In this document: in pieces, positions 123 through 40,729 of the stretch
Layout of the letters: each line of letters opens with the position of its first letter
Position numbering within the stretch: the first letter of the stretch is position 1
Assembly: GCA_024708885.1 (NCBI GenBank)
Contig: JANJXT010000011.1
Coordinates: forward strand, 62,001-126,000
From: Thiobacillus sp.
Lineage (GTDB): Bacteria > Pseudomonadota > Gammaproteobacteria > Burkholderiales > Thiobacillaceae
Reading direction: 5' to 3'
Length of the DNA: 64,000 bases
Notes under the pieces: generated by a model
The model's input: the letters and a program-made list of their open reading frames with translations, nothing else
Database searches by the model: none
Told to the model about the DNA's origin: nothing
Program-made: the position numbers and the translations under genes

Positions 123-1099
123 ACCAAGCGCTCGTCAGCGTCGTCCTGCCCACCTACAAGCGGGCGCATCTGCTCGCGCAGGCAATGCGCAGCGTGCTCG
201 AGCAAACCTACACGAATCTGGAGCTGATCGTCGTCGACGACAACTCTCCCGATGACACCGCGGCAGTGGTGCGCTCGTTCGACGATGCGCGCATCCGCTA
301 CGTGAAGAACGATCCCAACCTGAAGCTGCCACGTGCGCTCAATCGGGGCTTTGCAATGGCGCACGGCGACTACCTGACCTGGACTTCGGACGACAACCTG
401 CTGGCGCCCACGGCGATCGAACGCATGGTCGGTGCGTTGGCCGACGGAAACTGCGACTTCGTCTATGCCGACTACTGGCTGTTTTCCGAACAGGATGCAA
501 ACGGGCACCCGCTCGCGCCGCAGCACGACCGCCTGCCCGATATGCTGCAACTCGACAGGGGCAACCACATCGGCGCCTGTTTCCTTTATACCCGACGGCT
601 CTACGCCGCGGTCGGCGACTACGATCCGGAGCTCTTCCTGGTCGAGGACTACGACTACTTCCTGCGCGCAGCGCGGCAGTTCCGCTTCTGCCATATCGCC
701 GAACCGCTGTATTACTTCCGTCGTGACGATGCCACGCTGTACTGCTCGCGCTTTCCCGAGGTCAAGACGTCCGACGTGCTGGTGCGCTTCAAGAACGGCG
801 CGATCCAGGCCGGCGATGCGGCAGCGATGCTGACCGGCCTGCTGCTGCAACACCCGGCCAAGTTGACAGATGCCGGCTTGCGGCGCGCCCTGGCGATCCG
901 CGAGCGCCTCTCCTATCGTCTGGGAACCTGGCTGCTCGAGCGCGGCCGCGGCCGCCTGAAACACCGCATCGAGGCCGAGATCGCCCCCTTGTTCGCGCGC
1001 TACCAATCGGGCGAGGCCAGCTTCGGCGACACCCGCGCCGCGCTGCTCGACCGCGTGCGCGCCCATGGCGCGCTGGCCTACGTCGCGCCCAGGGCCTGA
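119..1099 (+). CDS. Glycosyltransferase family 2
   Basis: This 326-residue protein is a GT-A fold glycosyltransferase that probably adds one sugar to a lipid-linked glycan on the cytoplasmic face of the membrane. Near the N-terminus it has VSVVLPTYKR, followed by VVDDNSPDDT (nucleotide-sugar binding) and a TSDDN segment in the DxD position. A later VEDYDYFLRA segment supplies the usual ED acceptor-side motif. No membrane helix is evident. It starts with GTG, chosen because it overlaps the stop of the upstream epimerase by 4 nt. A sulfotransferase gene follows 4 nt downstream. The sugar donor cannot be read from the sequence. Confidence 0.88.
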   Translation: MNQALVSVVLPTYKRAHLLAQAMRSVLEQTYTNLELIVVDDNSPDDTAAVVRSFDDARIRYVKNDPNLKLPRALNRGFAMAHGDYLTWTSDDNLLAPTAIERMVGALADGNCDFVYADYWLFSEQDANGHPLAPQHDRLPDMLQLDRGNHIGACFLYTRRLYAAVGDYDPELFLVEDYDYFLRAARQFRFCHIAEPLYYFRRDDATLYCSRFPEVKTSDVLVRFKNGAIQAGDAAAMLTGLLLQHPAKLTDAGLRRALAIRERLSYRLGTWLLERGRGRLKHRIEAEIAPLFARYQSGEASFGDTRAALLDRVRAHGALAYVAPRA

Positions 1100-1103
1100 C
1101 ACC

Positions 1104-2024
1104 ATGTTGCGAACCATCCAGACCGCACTGACAGGTCCGGCCCAGGCATGGGCCCAGCATCGCCAGCTGATGAAGGACCATACCGGCATCGAAAGCGGGC
1201 TCGAAGCCTTGCAGGCCCTGTGTCCCGCGCCGAAGGACGATGCCGCGTCACCGATCTTCCTGCTTTCGGCGGGCTGGCGCTCGGGCTCGACCCTGATGCA
1301 GCGGCTGATCATGTCCGACAAGCAGGTGCTGATCTGGGGCGAACCCTACGACGAGTGCGGCCCGATCCAGGCCATGGCGGGCACGCTCAAGGCCTTCCGT
1401 CCCGGCTGGCCACCGGCCGAGTACTACTACGACGGCACGCCCCCGGCCCAGCTCACCGGCAGTTGGGTCGCCAACCTGTTTCCCGCGCCAGCTTCGCTGT
1501 GGCAGGCGCACCGGCAGTTTCATGACGCGCTGTTCGCCGCCCCGGCCACGGAGGCCGGCGCCGCGCGCTGGGGTCTGAAGGAGGTACGCCTCGGCATCGA
1601 GCACGCGCGCTATCTGAAATGGCTCTACCCCAATGCCCGCTTCGTGCTGCTGTACCGAAATCCGCTGGAGGCCTACCGCTCGTATTGCCGCTACGGCCGC
1701 AGCTGGTATGACACGTTTCCGGACAAGCCGGTGTTCACCCCCACGGCGTTCGGATCGCACTGGCGCAAACTGATGGAAGGCTATCTTGCGGGCGCCGCAT
1801 CGATCGGCGCGCTTCTGGTGCGCTACGAGGATCTGGTCGGACCCAAGCCGCCGCTTGCCGAAATCGATGCCCACCTCGGCATCCAGACCGACCACGGCGT
1901 GCTCGCCAAGAAGGTCGGCAGCTCCGAGCGCAGCGGCAGCAAGGTGCAGGTCAACGTGCTGGAGCGGTGGCTGCTCAAGCGTGCTGTCGGGCCGATCGCC
2001 GTACAACTGGGATATGCGTGGTGA
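1104..2024 (+). CDS. Sulfotransferase, PAPS-dependent type
   Basis: This 306-residue protein resembles cytoplasmic PAPS-dependent sulfotransferases, which move a sulfuryl group from PAPS to a sugar or lipid hydroxyl. The PAPS 5'-phosphosulfate loop is AGWRSGSTL at residues 56-64, after a hydrophobic strand. The 3'-phosphate strand follows as FVLLYRNPLEAYRSY. The ATG at 1104 was preferred over one at 1065, which lies inside the upstream gene, because the sequence before it is unlike the family. It is one of three sulfotransferases in the island, with those at 10240 and 17918. The acceptor is unknown. Confidence 0.85.
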   Translation: MLRTIQTALTGPAQAWAQHRQLMKDHTGIESGLEALQALCPAPKDDAASPIFLLSAGWRSGSTLMQRLIMSDKQVLIWGEPYDECGPIQAMAGTLKAFRPGWPPAEYYYDGTPPAQLTGSWVANLFPAPASLWQAHRQFHDALFAAPATEAGAARWGLKEVRLGIEHARYLKWLYPNARFVLLYRNPLEAYRSYCRYGRSWYDTFPDKPVFTPTAFGSHWRKLMEGYLAGAASIGALLVRYEDLVGPKPPLAEIDAHLGIQTDHGVLAKKVGSSERSGSKVQVNVLERWLLKRAVGPIAVQLGYAW

Positions 2025-2029
2025 GCGCG

Positions 2030-2941
2030 ATGGACGCCAGCATCATCGTTTGCACCTACAACCGGGCAGCCTCGCTCCAGGACACGCTCGCTGCGCTGAC
2101 GGCGCTACGAGCCCCGGCGGGTCTCGACTGGGAAGTGCTGGTGGTGGACAACAACTCGCACGATGCCACACGCTCGGTCGTCGAGACGCTGCAACGCGAC
2201 TGGCCGCGCCTGCGCTATGTATTCGAGCCCGCGCAGGGGCTCTCGCACGCACGCAACCGCGGCATCGCGGAATCGCGCGGCGCGATCCTCCTTTTCACCG
2301 ATGACGACGTGCTGCCGGAACCCGCATGGCTGGAAACCACGCTTGACGGCCTCGCTTGCCATCAGGCCGCCGCGTGCGGCGGCTATATCGCACCGATCTG
2401 GGAGACGCCTCCGCCGGCCTGGCTGACGGAGCGGTTCTATGGCTTCCTCGCGGTGCGTACCGATCGCAGCGACGACTACCCGATCACCACCCCCGGTCAG
2501 GCGCCTTTCGGCGCGAACATGGGGTTTCGCCGCGAGGTGTTCGAACGCGTCGGACACTTCGACACCCGCCGCGGCCGCAAGGGCAAGGTGCTGGCCAGCG
2601 GCGAGGACGGCGAGATGTTCGAGCGCATCCTGGGGGCCGGCTTCAAGGTCGTTTTTCTGGGTGCCTCGCGGGTCCACCACAAGGTGGAAAGCTTTCGCCT
2701 GACCAAGCGGTATTTCCGCCGCTGGCGTTTCCAGACCAGCCGCAATATCGCCCAGAGCCGCGGCCTGGCCGGGGCGCGACGGCTGTTCAACGTCCCCCTG
2801 TTCGTGTTCCCGCAATTCCTGCGCGCGGTGGGGCGGATGATCTGGGGCCACCTGACGCAGCCCCGCGACGAAGCCTTCAACCGCGAGATCGTGGTCTTCC
2901 ATTTCCTCGGTCTGATGCAGGGCCTGTTCCGTGCCCGCTGA
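2030..2941 (+). CDS. Glycosyltransferase family 2
   Basis: This protein of about 303 residues opens with SIIVCTYNRAASL, the standard GT2 N-terminus, followed by LVVDNNSHDAT and FTDDDVLPEP (the DxD metal site). A segment with SGEDGEMFERI supplies the catalytic acid region. The C-terminus has hydrophobic stretches that may lie against the membrane. ATG 2030 is taken as the start. GTG 2021, which overlaps the upstream stop as GTGA and adds three residues, is equally possible. The fused GT2 gene follows after 3 nt. Role: transfer of one sugar during repeat-unit assembly; specificity unknown. Confidence 0.88.
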   Translation: MDASIIVCTYNRAASLQDTLAALTALRAPAGLDWEVLVVDNNSHDATRSVVETLQRDWPRLRYVFEPAQGLSHARNRGIAESRGAILLFTDDDVLPEPAWLETTLDGLACHQAAACGGYIAPIWETPPPAWLTERFYGFLAVRTDRSDDYPITTPGQAPFGANMGFRREVFERVGHFDTRRGRKGKVLASGEDGEMFERILGAGFKVVFLGASRVHHKVESFRLTKRYFRRWRFQTSRNIAQSRGLAGARRLFNVPLFVFPQFLRAVGRMIWGHLTQPRDEAFNREIVVFHFLGLMQGLFRAR

Positions 2942-2944
2942 GCC

Positions 2945-5900
2945 ATGACCGACGGGCTCACGATCCTGATCTGCACCCACAACCGCGCCGACCTGCTGGA
3001 GCGGGTACTGGATTCGATCAATGCAGCCCGGCGGCCTGCGATGCCGGTACGGATCATGGTGGCCGCCAACGCATGCACGGACGACACGGCGGCGCGCATG
3101 CGGGCCTACCAGGCGCGCCAGGTGGACGAAGGCTGGCTGCCGTTGCAGCTGATCGAGGTGCCGACACCCGGCAAGTCCCATGCGCTCAACCGGGCGATAC
3201 CGGAAATCGAAACCGCGCTCACGGCTTTTGTCGACGACGATCATCGCGTCGACAAGGACTACCTGGCGGCCATTGAACATGGCACCCAGGCCTGGCCCGA
3301 TGCCGGTCTGTATTGCGGGCGCATCCTGCCCGACTGGGACGGCAGCGAGCCGCCCTGGGTGCACGACGAGGGCCCCTACCGCATCTATCCGCTGCCGGTG
3401 CCGCGCTACGACCAGGGCGAAGCGGCCAAGGCCATCACCGCCGAGGAAGGCCCGATTCCCGGTGGCGGCAATCTGGTGGTGAGACGAACGGTTTTTGCGC
3501 TGGCCGGTGAATTCTCGACCGAACTGGGACCGCACGGCCATGACCTGGGCGGCGGCGAGGACAGCGAATACGTGCTGCGTGCGATGGCGCGCGGTGCCGG
3601 CTGCCGGTACCTGCCCGGCATGGTGCAATACCACTATGTCGATACCGAGCGCTTGCGTCTGGGTTACCTGCTGAAGAAAAGCTTCCAGCGCACCCGCTCC
3701 ACCTCGCGCATCCGCGGCACGGGCCGGGTGCCGCTGTATATGTGGCGCAAGCTGGCGGAATATGCCTGGCACAGCAGCTTCAGCCTGTCATGGAGCAAGC
3801 GCCGCTTCTACTGGGTGCGCACCGCGGCTGCGCTCGGCGAAATCCGCGGACGCAACGAATCGGGACACCGCCACAAGAACCTGAAGCTGCCTCCCGATAC
3901 CGGGATGCTGCGCATCGAGGGCGTGGCGATTCTCACCGTCGCCTGCGGCTTGATCGCCTGGTTCGCCAGCGGCACGGCCAAGTGGGCCGGCCTGCTGCCG
4001 GCCCTCGGTGTTGCGGGGGCGGGGGCTGCCGCGCTGCTCGTGAAGTCGCTCGCCAACTTCTCGCAGACCGGACCGCGGATCCGCGAGGAAGTCCTCACGC
4101 ACTACCGCCGCTATACCCTTTACGCACTGGCCCGCCTGACCGCATGGGCGTTCATGATCATGCTGTTTACCGGCGGCGCCGGCGTGCTGCTGTACTTCAT
4201 GCTGACGACGACGCAGCAGGCCGCATGGTCGCCTGGCGGGGCGACACTCGCTGCGGCATTGGGCATCGTCTGGTCGTTCGCGCTGCAGTTCGCCACCAGG
4301 CTGCGTTTCAATCCAGGCGTTCTGGTAGCCTCGATGCATTACCGCATGAGCCGGCTTCATGGCCTGTGGAACTGGATGACACCGAAACGCATCGTCTGGC
4401 TGCACACGCTGTGGATAGGCGGAAGCGTGCTGCTGTTCCTGGGCGCATCCTGGCAGCTGGCACAGGAAAACCGGCTGGGGGACCTGGTCGCACTATGGTC
4501 TGCGGCGCTCTTCGTTGCCGGCACGCTGGCCTGGGTCGCGTGGGAACCGGAGGCACGTCCGCCCCGCCCGCTGCCGCAGCCCCGGGCGAACACTTCGCCC
4601 AACATCCTCATGATCGGGTCCGACACGCTGCGTGCCGACCGCCTCGGCGCCATGGGCTACCGCCGCACGCTGACGCCGCATCTCGACCTGCTTGCGACCC
4701 AGGGTGCGCTGTTCTCGAACTGCTACGTACCGTGCGCGCGGACGGCCCCCAGCCTCATTTCGCTGCTCACCGGCACCTGGCCGCATACCCACGGCATCCG
4801 TGATAATTTCGTTCCGCACGAGGATGCCCGCCTCAGGGTGCATGCCCTGCCGCAATGGTTGAAGGCGCAGCACTACCGCACGGCAGCACTGTCGGACTGG
4901 TGCGGTGCCGACATGGGGAAATTTTCCTTTGGCTTCGACCATACGGACCTGCCGGAGGATCAGTGGAACCTCAAGTACCTGATCCGCCAGGGCCCGAAGG
5001 ATCTGCGCCTGTATCTGTCGCTGTTCATCCACAACCGGCTGGGGCGCCTGCTGCTGCCCGAGCTTTACTACCTGGGCGGCGTGCCGCTCACACGGCCAAT
5101 CGGGAAGCGCGCGCGCCGGCTGGTGTCGCGCCTGGCGGCAGAGGACGCGCCATTTTTCCTCAACGTGTTCTATTCCACCACGCACCCACCGTTCGCGTCG
5201 GAGTGGCCGTGGTATGTGCGGTTCGCCGACCCGGACTACCGCGGCGAATCGAAGTTCGCCATGGCGCGCCTCACCGACCCATTCGACATCCTGCGCCGCC
5301 AGGGCGCGCCCCGTGAGGAATTCGATCTCGACCAGATCATCGACCTGTACGATGGCTGCGTAGCCCAGTTCGACGACGAGGTCGGCAAAATGCTCACCCA
5401 TCTGGACGCTTGCGGGCTCGCCGGCAATACGATCGTCGTGGTCTACTCGGACCATGGGATGGAGTTCTTCGAACACGACACCTGGGGACAGGGCAATTCC
5501 GCGGTGGGCGAAGCCAGTCCGCGAATTCCGCTGGTGATTCGCGACCCTCGCCTGCCTGGACACGGCCGCATCGATGCCGTTGTTCGCTCCATCGATCTTG
5601 CCCCCACCCTGCTCGAACTGGCCGGCGCGCCCCCTGCAGACGGCATGGATGGGGTATCGCTGGCCGACTGCCTGGCTGGCAAGAACTGTCCGGAGCTCGA
5701 TGCCTTCAATGAAACCGGCATCTGGATCACCGACATCCCCGGATTGCCCGAATCGCACCTGCGCTATCCGGACCTGCTGGAGCTTATCGACGTCCCGGAC
5801 CGCGAGGGTGGAACGCTCGGAATCAAGGGCAAGTATTGCTCCCGGATCATGGCCGCAAAGGACCGGATGATTCGCCATGGACGCTGGAAGCTGGTTTATC

Positions 5901-6106
5901 AGCCGCTGGAAGACGGCCACCGGCTGCATCTGTTCGACCTGGAGACCGACCCCCTGTGCCTGCATGACATCGCCGAACAGCACGCCTCGGTCACCGCCGA
6001 CCTGTGGGCACGTCTGCAGGATTTTCTCGGCCTGCCCTCAAATCATTCGCAGGCAGGCGCCACGAACGCCTTCAGCCACCGTCAATCGGGGCAGAAGCGG
6101 CAATAG
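2945..6106 (+). CDS. Fusion: GT2 glycosyltransferase, membrane helices, sulfatase-like phosphatase-superfamily domain
   Basis: This 1053-residue protein joins two enzymes. Residues 1 to about 310 form a GT2 domain (LTILICTHNRADLL, FVDDDHRVDKDY, GGGEDSEYVLRA). Residues about 320-535 hold about six hydrophobic helices. Residues about 550-1030 form an alkaline-phosphatase-superfamily domain with the metal ligands of SDTLRAD (D560) and YSDHGMEF (D836, H837). Sulfatases normally carry a Cys or Ser that becomes formylglycine, in C/S-x-P-x-R. Here the aligned segment is TAPSLISLLTG, so the nucleophile position is Thr600 and the Arg is Leu. That favours a phospho- or phosphodiester-type reaction over formylglycine sulfate hydrolysis, but this is inference. 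The 3' end overlaps the convergent TPR gene by 25 nt. Confidence 0.85.
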   Translation: MTDGLTILICTHNRADLLERVLDSINAARRPAMPVRIMVAANACTDDTAARMRAYQARQVDEGWLPLQLIEVPTPGKSHALNRAIPEIETALTAFVDDDHRVDKDYLAAIEHGTQAWPDAGLYCGRILPDWDGSEPPWVHDEGPYRIYPLPVPRYDQGEAAKAITAEEGPIPGGGNLVVRRTVFALAGEFSTELGPHGHDLGGGEDSEYVLRAMARGAGCRYLPGMVQYHYVDTERLRLGYLLKKSFQRTRSTSRIRGTGRVPLYMWRKLAEYAWHSSFSLSWSKRRFYWVRTAAALGEIRGRNESGHRHKNLKLPPDTGMLRIEGVAILTVACGLIAWFASGTAKWAGLLPALGVAGAGAAALLVKSLANFSQTGPRIREEVLTHYRRYTLYALARLTAWAFMIMLFTGGAGVLLYFMLTTTQQAAWSPGGATLAAALGIVWSFALQFATRLRFNPGVLVASMHYRMSRLHGLWNWMTPKRIVWLHTLWIGGSVLLFLGASWQLAQENRLGDLVALWSAALFVAGTLAWVAWEPEARPPRPLPQPRANTSPNILMIGSDTLRADRLGAMGYRRTLTPHLDLLATQGALFSNCYVPCARTAPSLISLLTGTWPHTHGIRDNFVPHEDARLRVHALPQWLKAQHYRTAALSDWCGADMGKFSFGFDHTDLPEDQWNLKYLIRQGPKDLRLYLSLFIHNRLGRLLLPELYYLGGVPLTRPIGKRARRLVSRLAAEDAPFFLNVFYSTTHPPFASEWPWYVRFADPDYRGESKFAMARLTDPFDILRRQGAPREEFDLDQIIDLYDGCVAQFDDEVGKMLTHLDACGLAGNTIVVVYSDHGMEFFEHDTWGQGNSAVGEASPRIPLVIRDPRLPGHGRIDAVVRSIDLAPTLLELAGAPPADGMDGVSLADCLAGKNCPELDAFNETGIWITDIPGLPESHLRYPDLLELIDVPDREGGTLGIKGKYCSRIMAAKDRMIRHGRWKLVYQPLEDGHRLHLFDLETDPLCLHDIAEQHASVTADLWARLQDFLGLPSNHSQAGATNAFSHRQSGQKRQ

Positions 6107-10239: not shown

Positions 10240-11157
10240 TCAATACCCCATCCTTGCAGCCACGTCGGCAACCTTCGGCAGTACGCGCTCGATCTTGTCG
10301 CGGTTACGCCCATCCTTCCACTTGTCGAGGCGGATTTCGGAGAAGGCGTTGTAGGGAATGTCGAGCACGTTGGCGCAGTGTGCCTGAAGCCGGTCGTCGA
10401 AGCGCAGGCCACAGCGCTCGAAAACATGCCGGAAGGCGGCCGCCGGATCGCGCAGGAAATCCTCGTAGAATACCTCGATCCATTGTCCGGCAGGGATGTT
10501 CGTCTTGGCATCCAGAATCGCAGCGTTGATCGCGGCATACTGGAAAGCCGCGACGTCCTCGACGGGCGCATTGACGTAATCGCGCCAACCCTCGGCCAGG
10601 AAAAAGCACCATTGGGTGAGTGTCCCATTCTCCACCGCCACCCGCGCCGGGAGGCCGTTCGACCACGTGGCAAACTCATCGGGCTTGCGCCAGCCCTCGA
10701 TCAGCGAGTTGAGATTGTCGCCAGGACTGCGCTTGACGAAAACGAACACGGCATCCGGAAACAGCGCATGCAGATACGGCACACCCAGGCCATTCTGGTT
10801 GTTCTTGTCGACCCAGCGGCGGCGCCCGGTCCAGCTATGGAAGTATCGACTGACGGCATCGCGTTCGGCCGTGCTCGCATCCGCTGCGTTCAATGCATGC
10901 GTGTCCCATTGCTTCTGCGACAAGGGATGCAGGGCCATCCAGTAGTCGTGCGTCTCGCGCTGCAGGCTGCCGATTTCGTGTGACTCGGACAAGGTCTTGT
11001 AGACGAGCGTCGTCCCCGCCCGCGAGCATCCCACCACGATGATGGGACGATCCGCCGGCTGCGGCGCAAGCGCCCACCTCATGCCCCGGATGCCGCGCCG
11101 CAGACGCCTCGCATGCCAGGCAAGCGTTTTGCTCACTTTTTGCAGGAATTCGCGCAC
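10240..11157 (-). CDS. Sulfotransferase, PAPS-dependent type
   Basis: This 305-residue protein carries the PAPS 5'-phosphosulfate loop GCSRAGTT at residues 43-50 and a 3'-phosphate region VFVFVKRSPGDNLNSL. Later WVDKNNQNG and EVFYEDFLRDP are typical of this sulfotransferase family, the last being the conserved acidic patch near the C-terminus. It is the first gene of the leftward unit 11157-6082, separated from the NodB-like gene by 82 nt. A short intergenic region (11158-11266) lies between it and a divergent asparagine-synthase-like gene; no clear promoter pair was found there. It probably sulfates the polysaccharide or its lipid carrier. Confidence 0.83.
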   Translation of the reverse strand: MREFLQKVSKTLAWHARRLRRGIRGMRWALAPQPADRPIIVVGCSRAGTTLVYKTLSESHEIGSLQRETHDYWMALHPLSQKQWDTHALNAADASTAERDAVSRYFHSWTGRRRWVDKNNQNGLGVPYLHALFPDAVFVFVKRSPGDNLNSLIEGWRKPDEFATWSNGLPARVAVENGTLTQWCFFLAEGWRDYVNAPVEDVAAFQYAAINAAILDAKTNIPAGQWIEVFYEDFLRDPAAAFRHVFERCGLRFDDRLQAHCANVLDIPYNAFSEIRLDKWKDGRNRDKIERVLPKVADVAARMGY

Positions 11158-13153: not shown

Positions 13154-14479
13154 TCACTCTCCTTGCCAGGTTCGTCGCTGACGGCTGAAGCCGGACGGGT
13201 GCGGGAATGACGCTTCTGCCCGGTCTTCCTGCACGACCGGGCGGCCACGATCCAGCACCCCGGCCAGCTTGGCGGCGATGATCAGGATGATTATCAAGTG
13301 GTACGTCAGGTCGAAATAGGCCAGTCCCAGGAATGCGCCACCGGCGCCATATCCGACCAGGCTCACCTGAATCATCGCCGCGAGATCCGCAGCCCACTTT
13401 CGTTCGGGATCGTGCTTGCACTGGTTGATGACCTGGCTGGCGCGTCGCCATGTGAACAGCGCCAGCAGGAGGAAAAGAGCAAGTCCGATGAAGCCATGCT
13501 CGCCCAGCACTTCGAAATAGATGCTGTGCGCGTCGTGGACCCTGAACGGGTCCGGGGCATAGTGGCGGAACGTCGGCGGCTGAAACATGTTGTAGCCGCC
13601 ACCGGTGATCCTGTCCCTGGCCACGTTGACTGCGGTATGCCAGGCATTGATGCGGCCCAGGGCCGAGGCATCCTCCTGATACGTCTTGATGGTATCCATG
13701 CGGTCATACCATTCCTGCGGCATCACCAGGGCCATGATCGCGACGGCGATGCCCATGTAGACCGCCATGACGAACTTATGGCGGCTCTTGAACCAGAGAA
13801 ACAGTCCCATCGCCGCGAGCGCCAGCAAGCCGCCGCGTGACTGGCTGCCGATGGCCGCCACGCCCGACAGCACCATCGCCGAAGCGAGTCCCAGCCGCAC
13901 CCACTTGCGTGGCTCCTGCAGGTGGAGATAGCGGATGAGCGGAACGAGCATCGCAAGCACGAGGGCCATTTCGTTGTTGCCGCCGAAGAAGGTGCCCGTG
14001 GGGCCCTGTACCCTGAACTGCCCGCCGTGAACGATGGTGAAGATACCGCCCTTGACGCCGTAATAACCCAGCGACAGGGCGATGACCCAGATCATCCAGT
14101 GAAGATGCTTGCGTTCCTTGATGATCATGGCCGTGAGGAACACCATGAGCTGAATTTTCCAGACCGTGTTCCATTGCACCCAGGCGAGATCAGGGTAGAA
14201 GGCAAAGACGGTCGTGATGAACATCCAGCCTATGAACAGCAGGAGCAGGACCGTCTCGCGCGTCCAGATCATTGTCTTCTGCTCTCTGGAGAACATGAAG
14301 GCCGTGATCGTGACGAGGGCGGTGATCATGGCGAAGGGCATGTCATAGGCAAAACCCCAGGCTTGACGATGCGGGTTCATGTAACCGAGCCAGCACCAGA
14401 GCAGAATGCCGACCCACGGCCGCCTGAAGATGAATGGCAGGACTCCGAAGACGATCGCGGTGACGAGAATGTCTCTCAT
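13154..14479 (-). CDS. Exosortase A-associated O-antigen ligase-like protein (TIGR03097 type)
   Basis: This 441-residue protein is a polytopic membrane protein with about ten or more hydrophobic helices. It starts MRDILVTAIVFG and contains GYMNPHRQAWGFAYD near residue 33, a hallmark of the exosortase-A-associated putative O-glycosylation ligase family. A large periplasmic loop with GGGYNMFQPP and HDAHSIYFEVLGEHG lies in the last third, as in Wzy/WaaL proteins. It probably polymerises or transfers undecaprenyl-linked glycan on the periplasmic side. Its start overlaps the upstream formyltransferase stop by 4 nt. It ends the leftward XrtA operon. Confidence 0.88.
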   Translation of the reverse strand: MRDILVTAIVFGVLPFIFRRPWVGILLWCWLGYMNPHRQAWGFAYDMPFAMITALVTITAFMFSREQKTMIWTRETVLLLLFIGWMFITTVFAFYPDLAWVQWNTVWKIQLMVFLTAMIIKERKHLHWMIWVIALSLGYYGVKGGIFTIVHGGQFRVQGPTGTFFGGNNEMALVLAMLVPLIRYLHLQEPRKWVRLGLASAMVLSGVAAIGSQSRGGLLALAAMGLFLWFKSRHKFVMAVYMGIAVAIMALVMPQEWYDRMDTIKTYQEDASALGRINAWHTAVNVARDRITGGGYNMFQPPTFRHYAPDPFRVHDAHSIYFEVLGEHGFIGLALFLLLALFTWRRASQVINQCKHDPERKWAADLAAMIQVSLVGYGAGGAFLGLAYFDLTYHLIIILIIAAKLAGVLDRGRPVVQEDRAEASFPHPSGFSRQRRTWQGE

Positions 14480-16535: not shown

Positions 16536-17921
16536 TCATGCCGCCGCGTGTTTCAGCGCGTCGGCGAGGGGAACGTGACTGACGACGTAGCGGTGCTTGC
16601 CGGACACCTCGGGCGGGATGTCATCGACCACGCGCAGATCGACGGAGAGCGTCTCGCCCAGCCGCGCGCGCAGGCCGTCGATCACGGCCAGGCGACCCTG
16701 CTCGTTCCACGCCGCCGCAGGCACCACCCGCACTTCCATGTGCGCAGGTGTATGCTGAATGCACTTGAACTGGGCGATGCCCGGCACTGCGCGCAACACA
16801 TAAATGACGGCCAGCGCGTGCATCATGCGCCCGTCTGCCGCCACCACGAAATCGGTCTGACGTCCGCTCACTTCGGCGATCACGTGCAGGCCCTGCCCGC
16901 CCGTCGCCGCCTCGGCCGACATGCGCAGGACATCGCCGGTGCGATAGCGAATGAAGGGCTGCGCCGCCGAGGCGAGGCCCGTGATCACGGCTTCGCCCGC
17001 CTCGCCTGGCGTCACCGCGCGTCCCGCTGCATCCAGCACTTCGACGATGTGGCTCTCGCTCATCAACAGCATCTGCCCGCCCGGTGCCTCGTGCGCGGTG
17101 AAGCCGATGTCGCGGCTGCCGAACTCGTTGGCCACCGACACATCGAACACGCGGCCGATGAGCGCGCGCTGGTGCGGATAGAGCGGCTCGCCGGTGGTGC
17201 ACACCACGCGCAGGGCCGGCAGGCGCAGCGTGCGCCCGCGCGCCTCGGCATGCGCCGCGAGCAGGGCCAGGCTCGACGCGTAGCCGTACAGGCAGTGCGG
17301 CTGCCAGGCCATCAGCGCGTCGAGATAGGCGTCCATGCGCGTTGGCGACATGGCGAAGGCATTCAACACCATCTGGTTCACCAGGCGGTCGCGCAGGGTC
17401 TTGATGCGGTCCGTCTTGTTCAATTCGACTGGCGCACCCCACAGATAGGTCTCGCGTTCGCCCGGTGCGACGCCCCACCAGCGCCGCGCGCGCATGCGTC
17501 CGGCGGCGTCGGACGCCTGGCGCTCGCGGCCGAAATGGAAGATCAGCGGCTCGCCGCTGGAGCCGCCCGTGGTGTAGGGAAACACGCCGCCCGGCACGCC
17601 GCGCCACACCAGACGATCGGCATTCTCACGCGCATCGCGCTTGCTCATGGTCGGCAGCCGCGAAAGATCGGCAAGGCCGACTGCGTGCTCGCGCACCGCG
17701 GCCTCCAGTCCGGCGGTGCGCAGACGCTCGGCGTACCACGGACTGTGCGCCAGCGCACTGGCCAGGAGGCCATTGAGGCGGCGCGCCTGATACGCCTCGA
17801 TTTCCGCGCGCGACAGCCATTGCGTGCGCTCGATCTCGGCCAGCATGGCGAAGGTGGGGCGACGCATCGCCGCTTCCTGCGCACGATAGACGCCGCGGGC
17901 GAACCAGGCAGGAAGGCTCAT
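16536..17921 (-). CDS. PaaK/CapK-like adenylate-forming enzyme
   Basis: This 461-residue protein belongs to the phenylacetate-CoA ligase (PaaK/CapK) branch of adenylate-forming enzymes. The nucleotide-binding loop is TTGGSSGEP at residues 117-125. GYASSLALLAAH, TTGEPLYPHQ and RYRTGDVLRM follow in the order expected for the family. Such proteins in polysaccharide loci activate a carboxylic acid as an acyl adenylate, sometimes for transfer to the glycan. It lies 21 nt upstream of the toroid gene and overlaps the preceding sulfotransferase by 4 nt. Its acid substrate is unknown, and it is distinct from the usual XrtA acyl-CoA ligase. Confidence 0.8.
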   Translation of the reverse strand: MSLPAWFARGVYRAQEAAMRRPTFAMLAEIERTQWLSRAEIEAYQARRLNGLLASALAHSPWYAERLRTAGLEAAVREHAVGLADLSRLPTMSKRDARENADRLVWRGVPGGVFPYTTGGSSGEPLIFHFGRERQASDAAGRMRARRWWGVAPGERETYLWGAPVELNKTDRIKTLRDRLVNQMVLNAFAMSPTRMDAYLDALMAWQPHCLYGYASSLALLAAHAEARGRTLRLPALRVVCTTGEPLYPHQRALIGRVFDVSVANEFGSRDIGFTAHEAPGGQMLLMSESHIVEVLDAAGRAVTPGEAGEAVITGLASAAQPFIRYRTGDVLRMSAEAATGGQGLHVIAEVSGRQTDFVVAADGRMMHALAVIYVLRAVPGIAQFKCIQHTPAHMEVRVVPAAAWNEQGRLAVIDGLRARLGETLSVDLRVVDDIPPEVSGKHRYVVSHVPLADALKHAAA

Positions 17922-18763
17922 GGGCGCGCTCCGCTCGCCACGGCCTTGAAACGCGCCAGCAGCTCGTCACACAGATCGACGACCGCCGGTGCGATATCCC
18001 GCGGTGTGCGGCGTTTCACCGAGCGTGCGTGAATCCTGCCGGCAATGGCCGGACTGAAACCGCGCAGACCGAGAAACGCGTAGACGGCAGCCACTTCGCG
18101 CTCGGGCTGCTGCACCAGATCTTCGTAGAACAGCAGACGTACGCGCGGATCGGCGGCGAGCTGCTGCTCGAAATACAGCACATTGCGGTAGAACCACATG
18201 ATCGCCGCGCCCTCGGCCTCGCTGGCATCGGGTCGATACAGCGCCGCCAACAGCTCGCGCGTAGCCGCCTGCATGCCGCGGCCCCGCCAGTCGCAGGCAT
18301 CCCCCTGCGCCAGGCGCTTCCATTGCGCGACGAAATTTCCGAACGACCGGACGGCGGAATGGGCACTGTCGCGCCAATCGCGCACCAGCCACAATGTCCT
18401 CGCCGGCGCGAAACCATCCATCATGACGCGAATGCGGTCGAGCTCGCACAGGGCCTTGATCACGAACACGGGTGCGGGACTTGCGTGCACCAGCCCGCGA
18501 ATCACGGTTTCATCGCGCATCTCGTAATTATCGAAGGCGCGCGGATCCGTCTCATGAAACACCTGTGTGTCCGCGCTTGCATCGAGCACGTCCATCAACA
18601 GGTTGGTGCCGGAGCGCTGCACGCCGGCGACGAACACGTGCAGCGCAACCGGCCGTGGACGCAGACGCTGCCGCAGCGCCTTGCCATGGCGCCAGGCCGT
18701 GCGTCGCAGTCGCGTCAGCAGGCTGCGTGCATCGTGTCCGGTTGCCGGCGCGCGTGCGGTCAT
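17918..18763 (-). CDS. Sulfotransferase, PAPS-dependent type
   Basis: This 281-residue protein shows the PAPS 5'-phosphosulfate loop GVQRSGTN at residues 47-54 after an HVFVAG strand. A 3'-phosphate strand LWLVRDWRDSAHSAVRSF follows, and LLFYEDLVQQPEREV near the C-terminus is the conserved acidic patch. It is the third sulfotransferase of the island. ATG 18763 was chosen because it overlaps the upstream GT4 stop as ATGA; longer readings lack family similarity. It probably sulfates a sugar of the exported polysaccharide or a lipid-linked intermediate. Confidence 0.85.
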   Translation of the reverse strand: MTARAPATGHDARSLLTRLRRTAWRHGKALRQRLRPRPVALHVFVAGVQRSGTNLLMDVLDASADTQVFHETDPRAFDNYEMRDETVIRGLVHASPAPVFVIKALCELDRIRVMMDGFAPARTLWLVRDWRDSAHSAVRSFGNFVAQWKRLAQGDACDWRGRGMQAATRELLAALYRPDASEAEGAAIMWFYRNVLYFEQQLAADPRVRLLFYEDLVQQPEREVAAVYAFLGLRGFSPAIAGRIHARSVKRRTPRDIAPAVVDLCDELLARFKAVASGARP

Positions 18764-20016
18764 TGCGCCGCCACCGCATTCACGCTGCCCGTACCGGCTG
18801 TCTTCCGCAGCAGCGGCGCGTAGGCGCGCAACAGTTGTGCGATGCGCGCATCCCACTGGTTGGCGCGTGCGTAGTCGAGAATCACCGCTGGGTCCCACGG
18901 TGTGTCGAGCGCGGTATCGAGCGCCTGCTGCAGGGCCGCGGCGTCGCCGAACGGCACGATGCTGCCCAGGTCAGCGCGACACACCACCTCGGCGTTGCCG
19001 CCGACATCGGTGGCCACCACGGGCAGCCCGCACGCCATTGCTTCGAGAAAAACGTTCGCCCAGCCTTCGTTGCGCGTGGCCAGCACGAAGACGTCGGCCG
19101 CCGACAAGGGGGTCTTCAACTCGTCCGGCGACAGCGCCCCGAGAAAGTGCACGCGCCCGGCAAGGCCGAGACGCGCAACCTGGTCTTCGAGCTCGCTGCG
19201 ATTGTCGCCCTCCGGACTCGCGCCGCCGACGATGAGGTAGTGCAGCCGCGGATGACGCTCGATGAGCGCGGGCAGACAGTCGATGACGCGGTGCATGCCC
19301 TTGCGTTCGACCAATGCGCCGACCGAGACGAGCACCTGCGCATCCAGCGGCACCCCGACCGCATGGCGCGCGGCGGTGCGGTCGACCGGATGGAAGCGCG
19401 CGAGGTCGACGCCGTTGCCGACGACCTCGGTGCGCGCCGCGTCGGCCCCCAGTTCCAGCGCGAGCCGACGCAGCGAGTCGGAAACCGTGAAGATGCGTGC
19501 AGCAGCCCGGAGCGTGCGCGCAAGACGCGGGCGCAGCGCGGGGTTGCGGCTGTGCGGCACTTCGGTGCCGCGCAGCGTCACCGTGACCGGCAGGCCGAGC
19601 CATCTGCCCAGGCGCACCGCGGCTTCGCCGTCGGGATACGCGAAATGGGCGTCGATCAGGCGCGCGCCCTCGGTCTTGAGGCGGCGCAGCAGCGCGTGGC
19701 TGGCCCATGCCATCGACCAGCCGTCGAAACGGCGCAGCAGCCCCGGCACCGCAAGATAGCGCGGATGGTAGACGCGGATGCCGTGCTGCATTTCCATGGC
19801 CGGCGCCTGCGGCCGGTAGCCGGAACGCCAGCGGCGGATCAAACCCTGCCCAGGAAACCAGGGCTGCGGCGAAACGACGACAAGCGCGTGATGACGTGCG
19901 ACGCGGAACATGCGCTCGCGAATGAACAGCCCCGCGCCCGGCCGCACCGTACTGGGAAAGAGCGCGCTGAACACGACAAGCTCGATGCCGCCGGCGGAGA
20001 TGTGCGAATCAGCCAA
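18760..20016 (-). CDS. Glycosyltransferase family 4 (GT-B)
   Basis: This 418-residue GT-B enzyme has an N-terminal loop PSTVRPGAGLFIRE, a central VGNGVDLARFHP, and a C-terminal VSVGALVERKGMHR with NEGWANVFLEAMACGLPV (EX7E). It should transfer a sugar from a nucleotide donor to the growing glycan. It overlaps the downstream sulfotransferase by 4 nt and the upstream Daro_2409-type transferase by 8 nt, so it is embedded in the leftward XrtA operon. Donor and linkage are unknown. Confidence 0.9.
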   Translation of the reverse strand: MADSHISAGGIELVVFSALFPSTVRPGAGLFIRERMFRVARHHALVVVSPQPWFPGQGLIRRWRSGYRPQAPAMEMQHGIRVYHPRYLAVPGLLRRFDGWSMAWASHALLRRLKTEGARLIDAHFAYPDGEAAVRLGRWLGLPVTVTLRGTEVPHSRNPALRPRLARTLRAAARIFTVSDSLRRLALELGADAARTEVVGNGVDLARFHPVDRTAARHAVGVPLDAQVLVSVGALVERKGMHRVIDCLPALIERHPRLHYLIVGGASPEGDNRSELEDQVARLGLAGRVHFLGALSPDELKTPLSAADVFVLATRNEGWANVFLEAMACGLPVVATDVGGNAEVVCRADLGSIVPFGDAAALQQALDTALDTPWDPAVILDYARANQWDARIAQLLRAYAPLLRKTAGTGSVNAVAAQ

Positions 20017-21235: not shown

Positions 21236-21246
21236 CGGAATGCATT

Positions 21247-21386
21247 AACCGCAGAGACACAGAGGCACAGAGATTTTCTTGAATCGGGGCCGCCTGTTCA
21301 AAATGCCGCCATGGCGCACATCAAGCATGCCGTCATGAGCCAAACTGCTTTTCTCGGTGCCTCCGTGCCTCTGTGGTGCAACGGTT
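21247..21386. repeat. Imperfect long inverted repeat, ACAGAGGCACAGAG type
   Basis: The gap between two XrtA genes holds a left arm at about 21247-21273 (CAGAGACACAGAGGCACAGAG) and a complementary, diverged right arm at about 21355-21384 (GTGCCTCCGTGCCTCTGTGG), with about 80 nt between. The same arms occur between gatA and gatB at 53066-53168. No ORF of note lies within. It looks like a dispersed palindromic intergenic element. Confidence 0.65.
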
Positions 21387-21390
21387 TTCA

Positions 21391-23310: not shown

Positions 23311-23360
23311 GTTTTTGCTTGTCCTGTCCCTGTCGAGTTCTCGCGCCGTTCGGCGGGCTT

Positions 23361-24485
23361 TCAGCGCCTGCGTGCGAGTGTCGTGTCGTACACCGTGGCG
23401 TAGGCGTCCGCCATGACCGGAATGCTGTAGCGCTGTTCCGCCTGTCGCCGCGCGGTGGCGCCATGCTCGGCGATGCGCGCCGGCGCGTCCAGATAGAAAA
23501 GCAACGCCTGTACCAGCGCCGCCATATCGCCGGACGGCACCAGGCGTCCGGTGACGCCGTCGTCCACCAATTCGACGTTGCCGCCGACCGCCGTGGCGAC
23601 CACCGGCAGACCGCTGGCGAAGGCTTCCAGAATGGTATTGGAAATGCCCTCGTTCCTGGACGGCAGCACGAACACGTCGATGGCCTGCATGATATCCGCG
23701 ATGTCGTCGCGCGCGCCGGGCAGCCAGGCCAGATGCGCCAGCCCCGCGCCCTGCAGCATGCCGAGACAGGTCTGGCGCGCGGGGCCCTCGCCGACGATGA
23801 CCAGCCGCGCACGCTCGGACCGGTCGGGCTGCTGCCGTATCAACTGGATGAACGCGCGCACCAGTGCGGGATAGTCCTTCACCTCGACCATGCGGCCCAC
23901 CGAGCCGAACACGATGCTGTCGGGATGGGCAAACTCGGGGCGCGCCCCGATCCGCGGGTGGAATTTCACGCTGTCGACGCCGTTGTAGATCTGGTGAATT
24001 TTTCCTGGCGGCACGCCGATCGCTTCGCGCAGCCAGTTTTCGAGATCGCGGCTCACCGCGATGTAGTTCGACACCAGCGGGCGCGCGGCGCGGCGCAGCA
24101 GGTTGTATTTCCAGTTGCGGCCGTGAAGATCGAACACATCGCGCCCATGTTCGCCATGTACCGTGGCCCGAATCCCCGCGGCGGCAGCGACGAACTGCGC
24201 CTCGAGTGCCGCCAGATTGCGTGTGTGCAGCAGATCGGGCTGCAGCTGGCGCAGCAGCCGCCACAGGCGCACCGTCCAGCCAAGGCCTTTGCCGGGCGCG
24301 CGGTGGAGCGCATGGAAATCGACGCGCTGCGCCGTGATGCGATGGCGAAACCCGCTGTAATCGGTGAGTGCGATCACCGTGTGGCGATAGCGCTGCGGCG
24401 ACAGGGTGTTGAACAGGTTGACCATGCCGTTTTCCATGCCGCCGGTGTCGAAGCCATGCACGACATGAACGATATGCGCCGTCAC
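23361..24485 (-). CDS. PEP-CTERM/XrtA-associated sugar transferase (TIGR03088)
   Basis: This 374-residue GT4-type protein has HIVHVVHGFDTGGMENGMVN at its start, characteristic of the PEP-CTERM/EpsH1-associated sugar transferase family. YNGVDSVKFHP, GSVGRMVEVKDYPALV and RNEGISNTILEAFASGLPV (EX7E) follow. The start is GTG at 24485, which overlaps the exosortase stop as GTGA. ATG starts further upstream would lie inside xrtA. It should add a sugar at the cytoplasmic membrane face during repeat-unit assembly. Confidence 0.9.
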   Translation of the reverse strand: MTAHIVHVVHGFDTGGMENGMVNLFNTLSPQRYRHTVIALTDYSGFRHRITAQRVDFHALHRAPGKGLGWTVRLWRLLRQLQPDLLHTRNLAALEAQFVAAAAGIRATVHGEHGRDVFDLHGRNWKYNLLRRAARPLVSNYIAVSRDLENWLREAIGVPPGKIHQIYNGVDSVKFHPRIGARPEFAHPDSIVFGSVGRMVEVKDYPALVRAFIQLIRQQPDRSERARLVIVGEGPARQTCLGMLQGAGLAHLAWLPGARDDIADIMQAIDVFVLPSRNEGISNTILEAFASGLPVVATAVGGNVELVDDGVTGRLVPSGDMAALVQALLFYLDAPARIAEHGATARRQAEQRYSIPVMADAYATVYDTTLARRR

Positions 24486-26023
24486 GGCCCGTCGACCCGA
24501 TCGAGCGCGGCCGCGATGGCCGGCTCCATATCGGCGGCGAAGCGCGCCAGTGTCGCCGCCGCGACTTCGACGCCGGTGTCGTCGTACGCTGTGGCAACCA
24601 GCACGGAGAGCCCGTCGTCGCGCTGCATGCGCACACGTTCGAAGGCAAGGACGAGCTTGGCGAGATGATCGTCGACCGTGACGCGTTCGCCGATGCGGTT
24701 CCACTGCCACACCAGCAGGCGCTGGCCGTCGCGCGACTTCAGCCTGGCCTGGCGAACCTGGCGCGGCGTGCCGGCGATGTCGACCGAAATGACCTGCTCA
24801 CCGACGTTCGACCAGACCTCGTCTTTCTGCCGGATCATGAAGTTCTGGGAATTGATGAGCTCGGCATCCTGCCGCTGGGTGACGTAGTAGTCGAGTTCAA
24901 GCATGGCATTGCGCCCAGCCTGGGCAAAACTCTGGCGCAGCTGACGGTCTGCGCCGACCCAGTGTGGCGTCCAGTTCGTAAATGGCGCGCGCGGCTGCCA
25001 GCCGCCCTGTGCTTCGATCTTCAGTTCCGGCATTGCCGGCAGTGGACGCGCAGCAAGCCAGGCCGCGTAGGCAGGCCACACGCCCACGATGCCGATCGCC
25101 GCCAGTACAAGCGGCCAGGCGGCACGACTGCTGGCGCTGCGCTCGTCGTCCTGCGGCACGGTTGCAAACTGGGGCTGGTCATCCTCGCGCCAGAAACTGC
25201 CGACCCAGAACAGCAGCACCATCACGAAACCGAAAAACACCCAGCCGTAGACGTAATGATCGACCCCGAGCGCCAACTTCATGTCGGAAAGATGGGCAAT
25301 CATCACGATCATGTAGGCCCGGCCACCGTTCGCAAAAATCGGCACGACGACGGCGGCGAGCGTGAACAGCAGCCGCCGCGTCCACGACCGATAGGTGAGG
25401 TAGGCATACAGCAGTCCGAGCGTGATCGATGCAATCAGGTAGCGCAGCCCGGAACAGCCTTCGACCACCGACCAGTCGCCGCTGGGAATGCTGAAGAACG
25501 TCCCCTCGCGATACACCGGGATGCCGGTGAATTGCAGGGCGAGCACGGTGAAATCCGCAGTAAAGTCCATCAGCGGCGGAATGAGGAATTCGCCCACCGG
25601 CACCGCCGTAAAAAGAAACATCAGCGGGAAGAACGCCGCCCACACGACGTTCCAGCCCAGCACGGTCCACACCATGCCGATCAACAGCGCGATGAACGCA
25701 TATTGCGCCACGACGTTGACGCTGCCGGCATCCGCCAGCAGCCAGGCCGCCCCCGCGCCGGCCAGCAGCAGCAGCCCCCGTGCGTCCGGATGCGGTGTCA
25801 GCTGCGCGAGCTCGCGACGCTGGCGCCAGATCAGCCACAGGCTGATGGGAAACACGAGGTAGCCATGCGCGAAGGTCTCCGAACGCGCCCAGACCTGCTC
25901 CATCGAGAGGAAGGTCGGCCAGAACAGGACGAATACGGCCAGCAGTCCGCCGACAGCCAGCAGGCCGGGCGGGCGCCAGCGGCTGGCAACGGCCTGCGGC
26001 AGGATTTCGGGCAAGGCGCTCAT
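24482..26023 (-). CDS. xrtA: Exosortase A with fused EpsI domain
   Basis: This 513-residue membrane protein is the exosortase of the locus. Residues 1 to about 285 form the multi-pass transpeptidase core with the catalytic triad Cys190 (VEGCSGLRYL), Arg235 (ANGGRAY) and His256 (VDHYVYGW). After a helix near 310, the rest is a periplasmic EpsI-type domain. Exosortases cut PEP-CTERM proteins and are thought to attach them to a membrane or glycan anchor. The gene overlaps both neighbours by 4 nt. No PEP-CTERM substrate is encoded in this window, so targets must lie elsewhere. Confidence 0.95.
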   Translation of the reverse strand: MSALPEILPQAVASRWRPPGLLAVGGLLAVFVLFWPTFLSMEQVWARSETFAHGYLVFPISLWLIWRQRRELAQLTPHPDARGLLLLAGAGAAWLLADAGSVNVVAQYAFIALLIGMVWTVLGWNVVWAAFFPLMFLFTAVPVGEFLIPPLMDFTADFTVLALQFTGIPVYREGTFFSIPSGDWSVVEGCSGLRYLIASITLGLLYAYLTYRSWTRRLLFTLAAVVVPIFANGGRAYMIVMIAHLSDMKLALGVDHYVYGWVFFGFVMVLLFWVGSFWREDDQPQFATVPQDDERSASSRAAWPLVLAAIGIVGVWPAYAAWLAARPLPAMPELKIEAQGGWQPRAPFTNWTPHWVGADRQLRQSFAQAGRNAMLELDYYVTQRQDAELINSQNFMIRQKDEVWSNVGEQVISVDIAGTPRQVRQARLKSRDGQRLLVWQWNRIGERVTVDDHLAKLVLAFERVRMQRDDGLSVLVATAYDDTGVEVAAATLARFAADMEPAIAAALDRVDGP

Positions 26024-40699: not shown

Positions 40700-40729
40700 G
40701 ATCTGCTCTTGAATCTGAAACGGGATTTT

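Follow-up and report, generated by a model that had tools for sequence, protein, structure and literature searches.

A glycosyltransferase fused to a threonine-bearing sulfatase-like domain, predicted to face the cytoplasm, in an XrtA locus of Thiobacillus

Introduction

What does a sulfatase-like domain do when it shares one chain with a GT2 glycosyltransferase, carries a threonine at the position of the formylglycine cysteine, and is encoded in a locus with several sulfotransferases? The question is raised by one gene in a 64,000-nucleotide stretch of a Thiobacillus genome (contig JANJXT010000011.1), referred to here as the window. Many bacteria from the environment and from activated sludge carry XrtA systems, whose polysaccharide chemistry is little known. 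We found no usable description in the literature of the fusion or of sulfated XrtA polysaccharides; the available text of PMC1569441, PMC9850573, PMC11641403 and PMC3770913 contains no description of the fusion protein, and our statement that it has no prior description is limited to such literature.

Results

The fusion gene, a single unbroken frame of 1053 amino acids with an ATG start, follows directly on the GT2 gene before it, whose stop is at 2941 (Table 1). Its GT2 part matched PF13641 (residues 5–109, E 7.8e-12) and PF00535 (residues 6–152, E 1.8e-10), and its C-terminal part matched Sulfatase PF00884 (residues 552–895, E 6.9e-44), all above the gathering score; the second-best Pfam family for the catalytic domain was PF01663, phosphodiesterase/NPP (E 4.2e-14). 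The motifs of the GT-A fold, D97-D98-D99 and E205-D206, were invariant in 71 aligned rows. The preliminary description had read GT2, about six helices and an alkaline-phosphatase-superfamily domain from this one chain, and both Pfam and AlphaFold2 agree with that architecture; its residue numbering (D560, T600-A-P-S-L604, D836, H837) was exact. The window's own genome holds only one copy of the fusion. Because the same fusion occurs in many other genomes, a frameshift or assembly artefact could be ruled out.

Table 1. Coordinates in the window of the fusion gene, its parts and the neighbouring genes.
Feature	Position	Strand	Basis
Whole fusion gene: GT2, six membrane helices, PF00884 sulfatase-like domain (1053 aa)	2945..6106	+	ORF, Pfam, AlphaFold2
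GT2 domain, residues 1-305	2945..3859	+	Pfam, alignment of 71 rows
Extra helix TM1, residues 319-341; in fused forms, absent from five-helix standalone relatives	3899..3967	+	AlphaFold2, hydropathy
Five-helix core TM2-TM6, residues 345-532	3977..4540	+	AlphaFold2
Two short interface helices, residues 457-463 and 468-477, between third and fourth core helix	4313-4375	+	AlphaFold2
Catalytic domain, sulfatase / phosphonate monoester hydrolase fold, residues 552-1028	4598..6028	+	Pfam, AlphaFold2, Foldseek
Asp560 codon, predicted metal ligand	4622..4624	+	Alignments
Thr600 codon, predicted nucleophile at formylglycine position	4742..4744	+	Alignments; model
His747 codon, conserved active-site His	5183..5185	+	Alignments
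Asp836-His837 codons, predicted metal ligands	5450..5455	+	Alignments
Sulfotransferase (PF13469), same run of + strand genes	1065..2024	+	Pfam
Preceding GT2 gene, 32% identical to fused GT2	2027..2941	+	Pfam, comparison
Second sulfotransferase (PF13469)	10240..11157	-	Pfam
XrtA-system O-antigen-ligase-like protein (TIGR03097, above cut-off)	13154..14479	-	
Third sulfotransferase (PF13469/PF00685)	17918..18898	-	Pfam
Exosortase A (XrtA) with EpsI-like C-terminal domain (TIGR03109 above cut-off), marks locus type	24482..26023	-	

A search for the same fusion in other XrtA loci, as the preliminary description had proposed, showed that it recurs: 71 full-length rows were aligned, the window included. 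Matches were found in 65 of 117 genomes of the family and in 19 of 399 in a draw from the order. Wide spread in the phylum was rejected: in a draw of 398 genomes, taken to be Pseudomonadota, the single match at E <= 1e-30 was the window's own genome. Carriers in the L075–L086 loci are strains of Thauera or Aromatoleum. The tie between the two enzymatic parts also takes other forms. At L112, L113, L114, L155, L157 and L163 the GT2 orthologue and the module lie in one operon-like run, and at L071, L074, L077, L081 and L089 the fusion partner is a second GT2, only 24% identical. On the tree this switch of GT2 requires four changes of label, three or more of them supported by starred branches, and the scatter of the alternative-GT label does not exceed that expected by chance (as low in 42 of 500 shuffles). 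An initial tree, with the window protein entered twice, left 81 rows ungrouped, so that only the label counts just given were used. Fusion, gene neighbourhood and swapped GT2 support the earlier suggestion that the catalytic domain goes together with a GT2.

The three sulfotransferases that had been noted in the locus are present. With identical modules collapsed, a sulfotransferase was found in 64 of all 74 loci and in 41 of the 43 with at least 7 kb on both sides; none was detected in the long-flank loci L097 and L099. After G069 and G086, in which only the GT2 part matched, had been removed from the 59 genome matches, a sulfotransferase was present in 56 of 57 relatives' genomes with the module, compared to 13 of 27 XrtA genomes without it. 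Outside the genus the corresponding counts were 8 of 9 and 11 of 23 (Fisher p 0.05), a weak association. A strict tie to sulfation could not be shown, in view of this weak association and the two long-flank loci in which no sulfotransferase was detected.

The sulfatase fold itself is present in the catalytic domain, as indicated by the PF00884 match and by Foldseek (E 3.2e-19 to 7stt), and T600 aligns with the formylglycine cysteine of solved sulfatases. The signature C/S-x-P-x-R (PS00523) is absent, with T600-A-P-S-L604 in its place. Thr600 was Thr in 82 of 82 rows of a first alignment, and in 100 of 101 rows, with one gap, of a larger one, in which identical modules were collapsed and the window protein was counted a second time under L133, the locus of its own genome. 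In the larger alignment D651, K659, H747, D836, H837, E843, Q849 and N851 were likewise each kept in 100 of 101 rows with one gap, and D560 in 99 with two gaps. L604 replaces the Arg of C-x-P-x-R in a column of 97 Leu, two Met and one Ile. The block G-K-x(0,1)-W-H with the catalytic Lys and His (PS00149) is also missing: S650-D651-W652-C653 aligned to I-G-K-W-H of 5g2v, such that D651 stands for the Lys and C653 for the His, position 653 being Cys, Ala or Ser in 89, 9 and 2 rows. In the AlphaFold2 model Thr600 caps the N terminus of helix 600–609, and pLDDT falls below 50 over residues 841–850, which contribute to the active site.

Comparison with the phosphonate monoester hydrolases (S1_0) gave a divided result, with Thr600 in place of their formylglycine nucleophile and the Asp/Asp/His one-metal site represented by the conserved D560, D836 and H837. 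The three positions, which we take to be the ligand positions of the phosphonate monoester hydrolases, were aligned here to 4upi and 4upl. The metal ligands named in the preliminary description are present, and are conserved across the 101-row alignment. In the window's genome (84% complete) the single protein with an FGE domain (PF03781, 467 aa) is presumably EgtB/OvoA-like and unlike a formylglycine-generating enzyme. According to the available part of the SulfAtlas paper, Thr cannot be converted to formylglycine, and no PF00884 protein with Thr has been demonstrated to act as a sulfatase. Since Thr600 is accompanied by the replacement of three further sulfatase catalytic residues (Arg, Lys and His), a formylglycine sulfatase was rejected on its motif. 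Comparison with solved structures turned up no close homologue with demonstrated sulfatase activity, the case named beforehand as refuting; the best sequence match was 6hhm (E 7.3e-30). Judged from sequence, Thr600 is very probably the nucleophile of an enzyme that is not a sulfatase, in accordance with the earlier reading.

AlphaFold2 gave a pLDDT of 85.3 and a pTM of 0.77 for the whole chain, and 90.2 and 0.83 for the membrane region alone. The best 50 Foldseek rows for the whole chain were S1 sulfatases and phosphonate monoester hydrolases, at identities of 18–24% and a best E of 3.2e-19. The names EptA, MCR, BcsG and LtaS did not occur among the matches listed (50 rows) for either the whole chain or the membrane region. 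None of 132 matches of the membrane region to solved structures reached E <= 0.001, so that no EptA, LtaS or BcsG structure was matched at that level; the best match was CysZ (E 0.68, not significant).

Six helices were predicted by AlphaFold2 (residues 319–341, 345–370, 388–423, 430–455, 480–507 and 511–532), and a hydropathy profile averaged over the 71 rows also had six hydrophobic segments. In the same rows mean Lys plus Arg (K+R) counts were 5.9, 4.9, 6.0 and 4.0 on the GT2 side versus 0.8, 0.2 and 1.4 on the opposite side. The 88 rows of fused, alternative-GT or truncated form carried 10–20 K+R in the three inside loops and 0–3 in the two outside loops, with 5–15 cysteines in the catalytic domain; these counts leave out L160, L164 and L165, as do those below for 13 standalone rows, and the window protein enters the set twice. 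The catalytic domain had a cysteine density of 1.72 per 100, level with the 1.52 per 100 found in the fused GT2, and the number of cysteines was odd in 38 of 71 rows. Taken together, the number of helices, the charges of the loops and the cysteines lead us to predict, with considerable confidence, a cytoplasmic location for the fused catalytic domain, beside the GT2. The charge rule rests on short loops here, and the inside loops carry conserved K367, R397, R467 and R470, which may bind substrate. An EptA-type periplasmic topology was our first idea for the fused form, and was lowered by the same three features: the five helices and periplasmic catalytic domain of EptA and MCR are replaced by six helices and a predicted inside-type pattern of charges and cysteines.

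A sister clade of four standalone five-helix proteins (L115, L116, L139 and L154), which we call type I, has the reverse loop charges to the fused/type II form. No GT2 orthologue was found in any of the four genomes, and their catalytic domains, 477–478 residues long, contain no cysteines, compared to 4–7 in 13 standalone type II rows. K+R in the B and D loops numbered 4–8 in type I, 0–2 in the 13 standalone type II rows and 0–3 in the 88 other rows. Only the B and D loops and the cysteines separated the types cleanly; all loops summed with the N-tail pointed to the periplasm for L116 and L139, tied for L115, and favored the cytoplasm by one charge for L154. The type I set is small, and its members are related (53–69% mutual identity among three compared). 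Their identity to the type II rows used for comparison is 42–49% (without L154), and they share with those rows the five-helix core and the catalytic residues, including R-T-A-P-S. Start codons of the standalone proteins are a choice among several possible.

Discussion

Our favored reading, to which we give even chances, is that the fusion is a cytoplasm-facing, membrane-anchored, one-metal phosphoryl-transfer enzyme with a Thr nucleophile, joined to a GT2 and belonging, within the alkaline phosphatase superfamily, to the lineage of S1 sulfatases and phosphonate monoester hydrolases. At the inner leaflet, the GT2 would add a sugar to an undecaprenyl-linked repeat, the adjacent domain would attack a phosphodiester donor via Thr600, and the phospho-substituent would most likely pass to the same lipid-linked glycan before flipping and polymerisation. 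Like the preliminary proposal that a phospho-group is added to or taken from the glycan that receives the sugar, this order of steps is an inference. We lean slightly toward a transferase rather than a hydrolase, and only tentatively suggest a phospholipid, at a guess from the inner leaflet, as the donor. The nearest variant of this favored reading is a hydrolytic phosphodiesterase that trims a phospho-group.

The fusion shares its catalytic fold, C-terminal subdomain, D/D/H metal ligands and conserved His with the phosphonate monoester hydrolases (S1_0; RlPMH 2vqr, BcPMH 2w8s) and S1 arylsulfatases (4upi, 4upl, 6hhm). It differs from them in having T-A-P-S-L for C/S-x-P-x-R and Asp/Cys for the Lys/His block, and in being membrane-bound, GT2-fused and predicted cytoplasmic. 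That these nearest solved relatives are hydrolases, and that PF01663 is the second-best Pfam family, would suit a cytoplasmic phosphodiesterase acting in proof-reading or recycling, one that takes off a phospho-substituent or frees lipid-linked intermediates of the fused GT2 that have stalled. However, a biosynthetic GT2 is less naturally fused to a destroying activity, and the tie has been rebuilt with a second GT2, so we consider such a role rather unlikely. A sulfatase or sulfate-transfer enzyme using Thr600 as a plain nucleophile to edit sulfate from the neighbouring sulfotransferases would explain why most long-flank loci and nearly all genomes with the module contain a sulfotransferase, and both enzymes would then be cytoplasmic. 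It is nonetheless very unlikely, given the residue replacements, the statements on Thr in the accessible portion of the SulfAtlas paper, and a genome whose sole FGE-domain protein we take to be no formylglycine-generating enzyme. That the domain is a catalytically dead scaffold positioning the GT2 is hardly credible, as the metal ligands, Thr600 and His747 are invariant across rows of 42–94% identity.

The remaining alternative is an EptA/LtaS/BcsG-like enzyme with a periplasmic catalytic domain, which would decorate the flipped glycan with phosphoethanolamine or phosphoglycerol; only five of the six helices predicted for the fusion would then span the membrane. In the published text available, the MCR-1 site comprises E246, T285, D465 and H466; the fusion resembles EptA and MCR-1 in its Thr nucleophile with Asp and His ligands and in the several N-terminal helices that precede the catalytic domain, with Asp560 where they have Glu. 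BcsG, as far as its accessible description goes, is an alkaline-phosphatase-superfamily transferase working with the GT2 synthase BcsA, and has the order found here of five helices with two interface helices between the third and fourth. Charges and the cysteine-free catalytic domain of type I also suit the periplasm, and the phosphoethanolamine transferases known from the accessible parts of the reviewed literature are all periplasmic. However, EptA and MCR-1 are described in those parts as five-helix, periplasmic and mostly disulfide-bonded, whereas the fusion has a GT2 and six helices by both AlphaFold2 and hydropathy, the standalone five plus one. BcsG is described there as separate from BcsA and periplasmic, with a Ser nucleophile and Cys/Glu/His ligands, in contrast to a single, predicted cytoplasmic chain. 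Loop charges in all 88 fused, alternative or truncated rows favor the cytoplasm, their catalytic domains are rich in cysteine, and the membrane region has no solved-structure match at E <= 0.001. We therefore regard the periplasmic arrangement as improbable for the fused form. The preliminary interpretation is supported in part; three findings speak against its comparison with EptA as worded: the fold is nearest to S1 sulfatases and phosphonate monoester hydrolases, and nearer to S1 sulfatases than to EptA, in the best 50 Foldseek rows, the membrane region has no EptA-type match at E <= 0.001, and the cytoplasmic side is predicted.

The loop charges of type I and the absence of cysteine from its catalytic domain are as expected for the periplasm, so that the family appears to have undergone an inversion across the membrane, its cytoplasmic form tied to a GT2 by fusion, gene neighbourhood or a swapped second GT2. 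The tree is unrooted with several long branches, and gives no direction for this inversion. More broadly, and with slightly less than even confidence, we propose that one family of membrane enzymes within the superfamily adopts two opposite orientations. Type I would be standalone, five-helix and periplasmic like EptA; type II would be a cytoplasmic, glycosyltransferase-coupled phosphotransferase acting on the lipid-linked repeat before export, having either five helices with the N terminus outside or an extra helix that allows the GT2 to lie inside. To our knowledge, type II would be the first transferase of the superfamily to act on the cytoplasmic leaflet.

Thr-bearing PF00884 proteins are routinely labelled sulfatases, and the label misleads here, where sulfatase chemistry has been lost amid a sulfotransferase-rich locus. 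If the predicted side is right, phospho-modification of exopolysaccharide would be possible on the cytoplasmic leaflet, by one chain that also adds a sugar. For the study of membrane-protein evolution, a membrane enzyme that has been inverted in nature along with its catalytic domain of 480 residues, and that bears marks of charge and cysteine content in either orientation, would offer a rare case open to testing.

The fusion protein and its catalytic site

The preliminary description placed a GT2 glycosyltransferase, membrane helices and a sulfatase-like domain with Thr at the formylglycine position in one chain, and this observation was confirmed by the single frame of 1053 codons, by Pfam, by an AlphaFold2 model and by profile alignment. 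The whole-chain model, built from 71 aligned fused rows (pLDDT 85.3, pTM 0.77), has six long helices separating the GT2 from the catalytic domain, and the membrane region modelled alone gave identical six helices (pLDDT 90.2, 67 rows). Structure prediction, proposed earlier as a check, also gave the catalytic domain a sulfatase/phosphonate monoester hydrolase (PMH) fold; the best 50 of 661 Foldseek matches (E <= 0.001) were S1 sulfatases and PMHs, with target-normalised TM-scores of 0.60–0.71. In the model T600 caps helix 600–609, the helix that comes after strand 588–594.

Profile alignment to solved sulfatases set T600 on the formylglycine Cys, Leu604 on the Arg of C-x-P-x-R, and S-D-W-C on the G-K-W-H block. 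In a set of 101 rows that includes the window protein twice, T600, D651, K659, H747, D836, H837, E843, Q849 and N851 were constant in 100 (one gap each) and D560 in 99 (two gaps); both the replaced motif, with Thr at the nucleophile position, and the metal ligands D560, D836 and H837 are as first read from the sequence. PF00884 matches in the window's genome were limited to the fusion gene and one other, presumably an OpgB/LtaS-like transferase. According to the SulfAtlas paper, Thr is found in 30 of 59 PF00884 seed members, and formylglycine made from Thr has never been demonstrated. On that account Thr as such is common in this Pfam family, and the catalytic domain of the fusion should not be named a sulfatase.

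The single metal with Asp, Asp and His, together with the Thr nucleophile, is the same site in kind as that of MCR-1/EptA. The suggested likeness to EptA-type transferases stands for nucleophile and metal site, but the fold is nearest to S1 sulfatases and PMHs among the listed Foldseek matches, so that the catalytic domain is a fold of the sulfatase/PMH lineage with a nucleophile of transferase type. With a pair of interface helices set between its third and fourth helices, the five-helix core recalls the corral described for BcsG, though the fold search gave no structural match for the membrane region at E <= 0.001.

Spread and arrangements of the module

The chain was matched in 59 of 149 related genomes, and the GT2 part alone in two of those 59 (G069 and G086). 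Of 134 loci in the genome collection that encode relatives, 80 were taken, some of them from Thiobacillus, Candidatus Nitrotoga, Aromatoleum, Thauera and Sulfuriferula; the same fusion, which was to be sought elsewhere, recurs in such loci, and the nearest named one (L093, a Thiobacillus MAG) is 93% identical to the window protein over the chain. Besides the fusion, the membrane-catalytic module occurs in three arrangements. As neighbouring genes (L112, L113, L114, L155, L157, L163), the GT2 orthologue and the membrane-catalytic gene lie in an unbroken row on one strand, with a sulfotransferase gene and then another GT2 gene between them. In the swapped arrangement (L071, L074, L077, L081, L089), the module is fused with a different GT2, which shares just 24% identity with the usual one; these five GT2s are 71–80% identical to each other in the comparisons made. 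The standalone arrangement is that of the type I relatives. The swapped-GT2 label requires four changes on the catalytic-domain tree, at least three by starred branches; the swap thus seems to have occurred repeatedly, and sequence comparison indicates a fusion that is old and modular. Gene order around the module differs from other loci in L160, where a homologue (39%) of the second-type GT2 lies immediately upstream of a standalone module, and in L110, where the 370-aa neighbour gene is on the opposite strand.

The XrtA locus

The window holds an XrtA exopolysaccharide locus with XrtA, stp1-3 glycosyltransferases, PEP_O_lig, FemAB, a polysaccharide deacetylase, chain-length and export proteins, asparagine synthase, and the three sulfotransferases noticed at the outset. 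By a profile built from the window's own sulfotransferases, 41 of the 43 loci that extend at least 7 kb on both sides have such a gene close to the module, as do 64 of 74 overall. Across the 149 genomes, PF13469 was present in 56 of 57 with the module versus 13 of the 27 that have XrtA but lack the module. When the window's own genus is set aside, the counts among XrtA genomes were 8/9 versus 11/23. By these counts the module co-occurs with sulfated-polysaccharide loci.

Coordinates of domains, type I relatives and other genes
Feature	Position	Strand	Remarks
Fusion gene	window 2945-6106	+
GT2 domain	residues 5-152	+	Pfam
Sulfatase PF00884 domain	residues 552-895	+	Pfam
SGSH_C C-terminal family	behind PF00884 domain	+	Pfam
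Type I relative	L115 7124-9301		cysteine-free catalytic domain, reversed loop charges
Type I relative	L116 6521-8806		as L115
Type I relative	L139 6346-8493		as L115
Type I relative	L154 7559-9643		as L115
Conserved neighbour gene	window 8958-10070	-	in 58/80 homologous loci; no Pfam match at E 1e-4; working label 'PDA2' is an unsupported guess
GH127-type glycosidase relative	window 15300-16511	-	PF07944, E 6.5e-7; inside biosynthetic locus
Possible gene in XrtA locus	window 21245-22927	-	no match in Pfam at 1e-4 or NCBIfam at 1e-10
Possible gene in XrtA locus	window 22973-23809	-	no Pfam match at 1e-4
Lipoyl-synthase-like radical SAM domains	window 39773-41872	-	PF04055, PF16881 in C-terminal half of ORF; long N-terminal part may be read-through 5' of true start
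Second exosortase-like gene	window's genome (G000), contig C66 14092-22758		under XrtA cut-off; two sulfotransferases nearby

Membrane orientation

GT2 enzymes consume nucleotide sugars and are taken as cytoplasmic, so that six helices would return the catalytic domain of the fusion to the cytoplasm. Mean K+R counts of the loops were 5.9, 4.9, 6.0 and 4.0 on one side versus 0.8, 0.2 and 1.4 on the other (71 rows), a bias that stems in part from loops A and C, whose conserved basic residues may be functional; the short loops B and D were therefore used for the charge comparison. These hold 0–3 K+R in 88 fused, alternative (module joined to the second GT2) or truncated rows, 0–2 in 13 standalone type II proteins and 4–8 in type I. 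The 13 standalone type II proteins have five helices and a short N-tail with 0–1 K+R, which argues for an outside N terminus.

The earlier interpretation, in which a sugar is added and a phospho-group is then added to or removed from the same lipid-linked glycan, is supported in part: sulfatase identity is unlikely and Thr600, the probable nucleophile, is conserved, but the catalytic domain is predicted to be cytoplasmic. We infer that, at the inner leaflet, the five-helix core would offer the catalytic domain a lipid. Thr600, activated by the single metal, would accept the phospho-group of a phosphodiester donor and hand it to the lipid-linked glycan receiving the sugar of the GT2; the catalytic domain may instead act by hydrolysis.

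Cysteine content is an independent test of side. Catalytic domains contain 5–15 cysteines in fused and alternative rows (n=89), 4–7 in standalone type II proteins (n=13), and none in the 477–478 residues of all four type I proteins; in the fused form, the catalytic domain is as rich in cysteine as the GT2 part (1.72 and 1.52 per 100 residues). Type I membrane regions contain cysteines (mean 2.25), as does the GT4 gene in three type I loci (2–4), so their absence is not genome-wide. A GT2 orthologue was found in none of the four type I genomes (75–93% complete). Seven genomes carry standalone type II modules: five of them have the orthologue, G858 has none and G848 a 30% match only. Two of the four type I relatives sit in genomes of the genus Thiobacillus, where other strains have the fused type.

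The simplest account of these patterns is a family whose members face either side of the membrane, with the cytoplasmic form accompanying a GT2. Against it, the type I sample comprises only four related proteins, and their total-charge sum gave periplasm twice, a tie once and cytoplasm once. The orientation, and its apparent inversion within the family, are the main points of interest.
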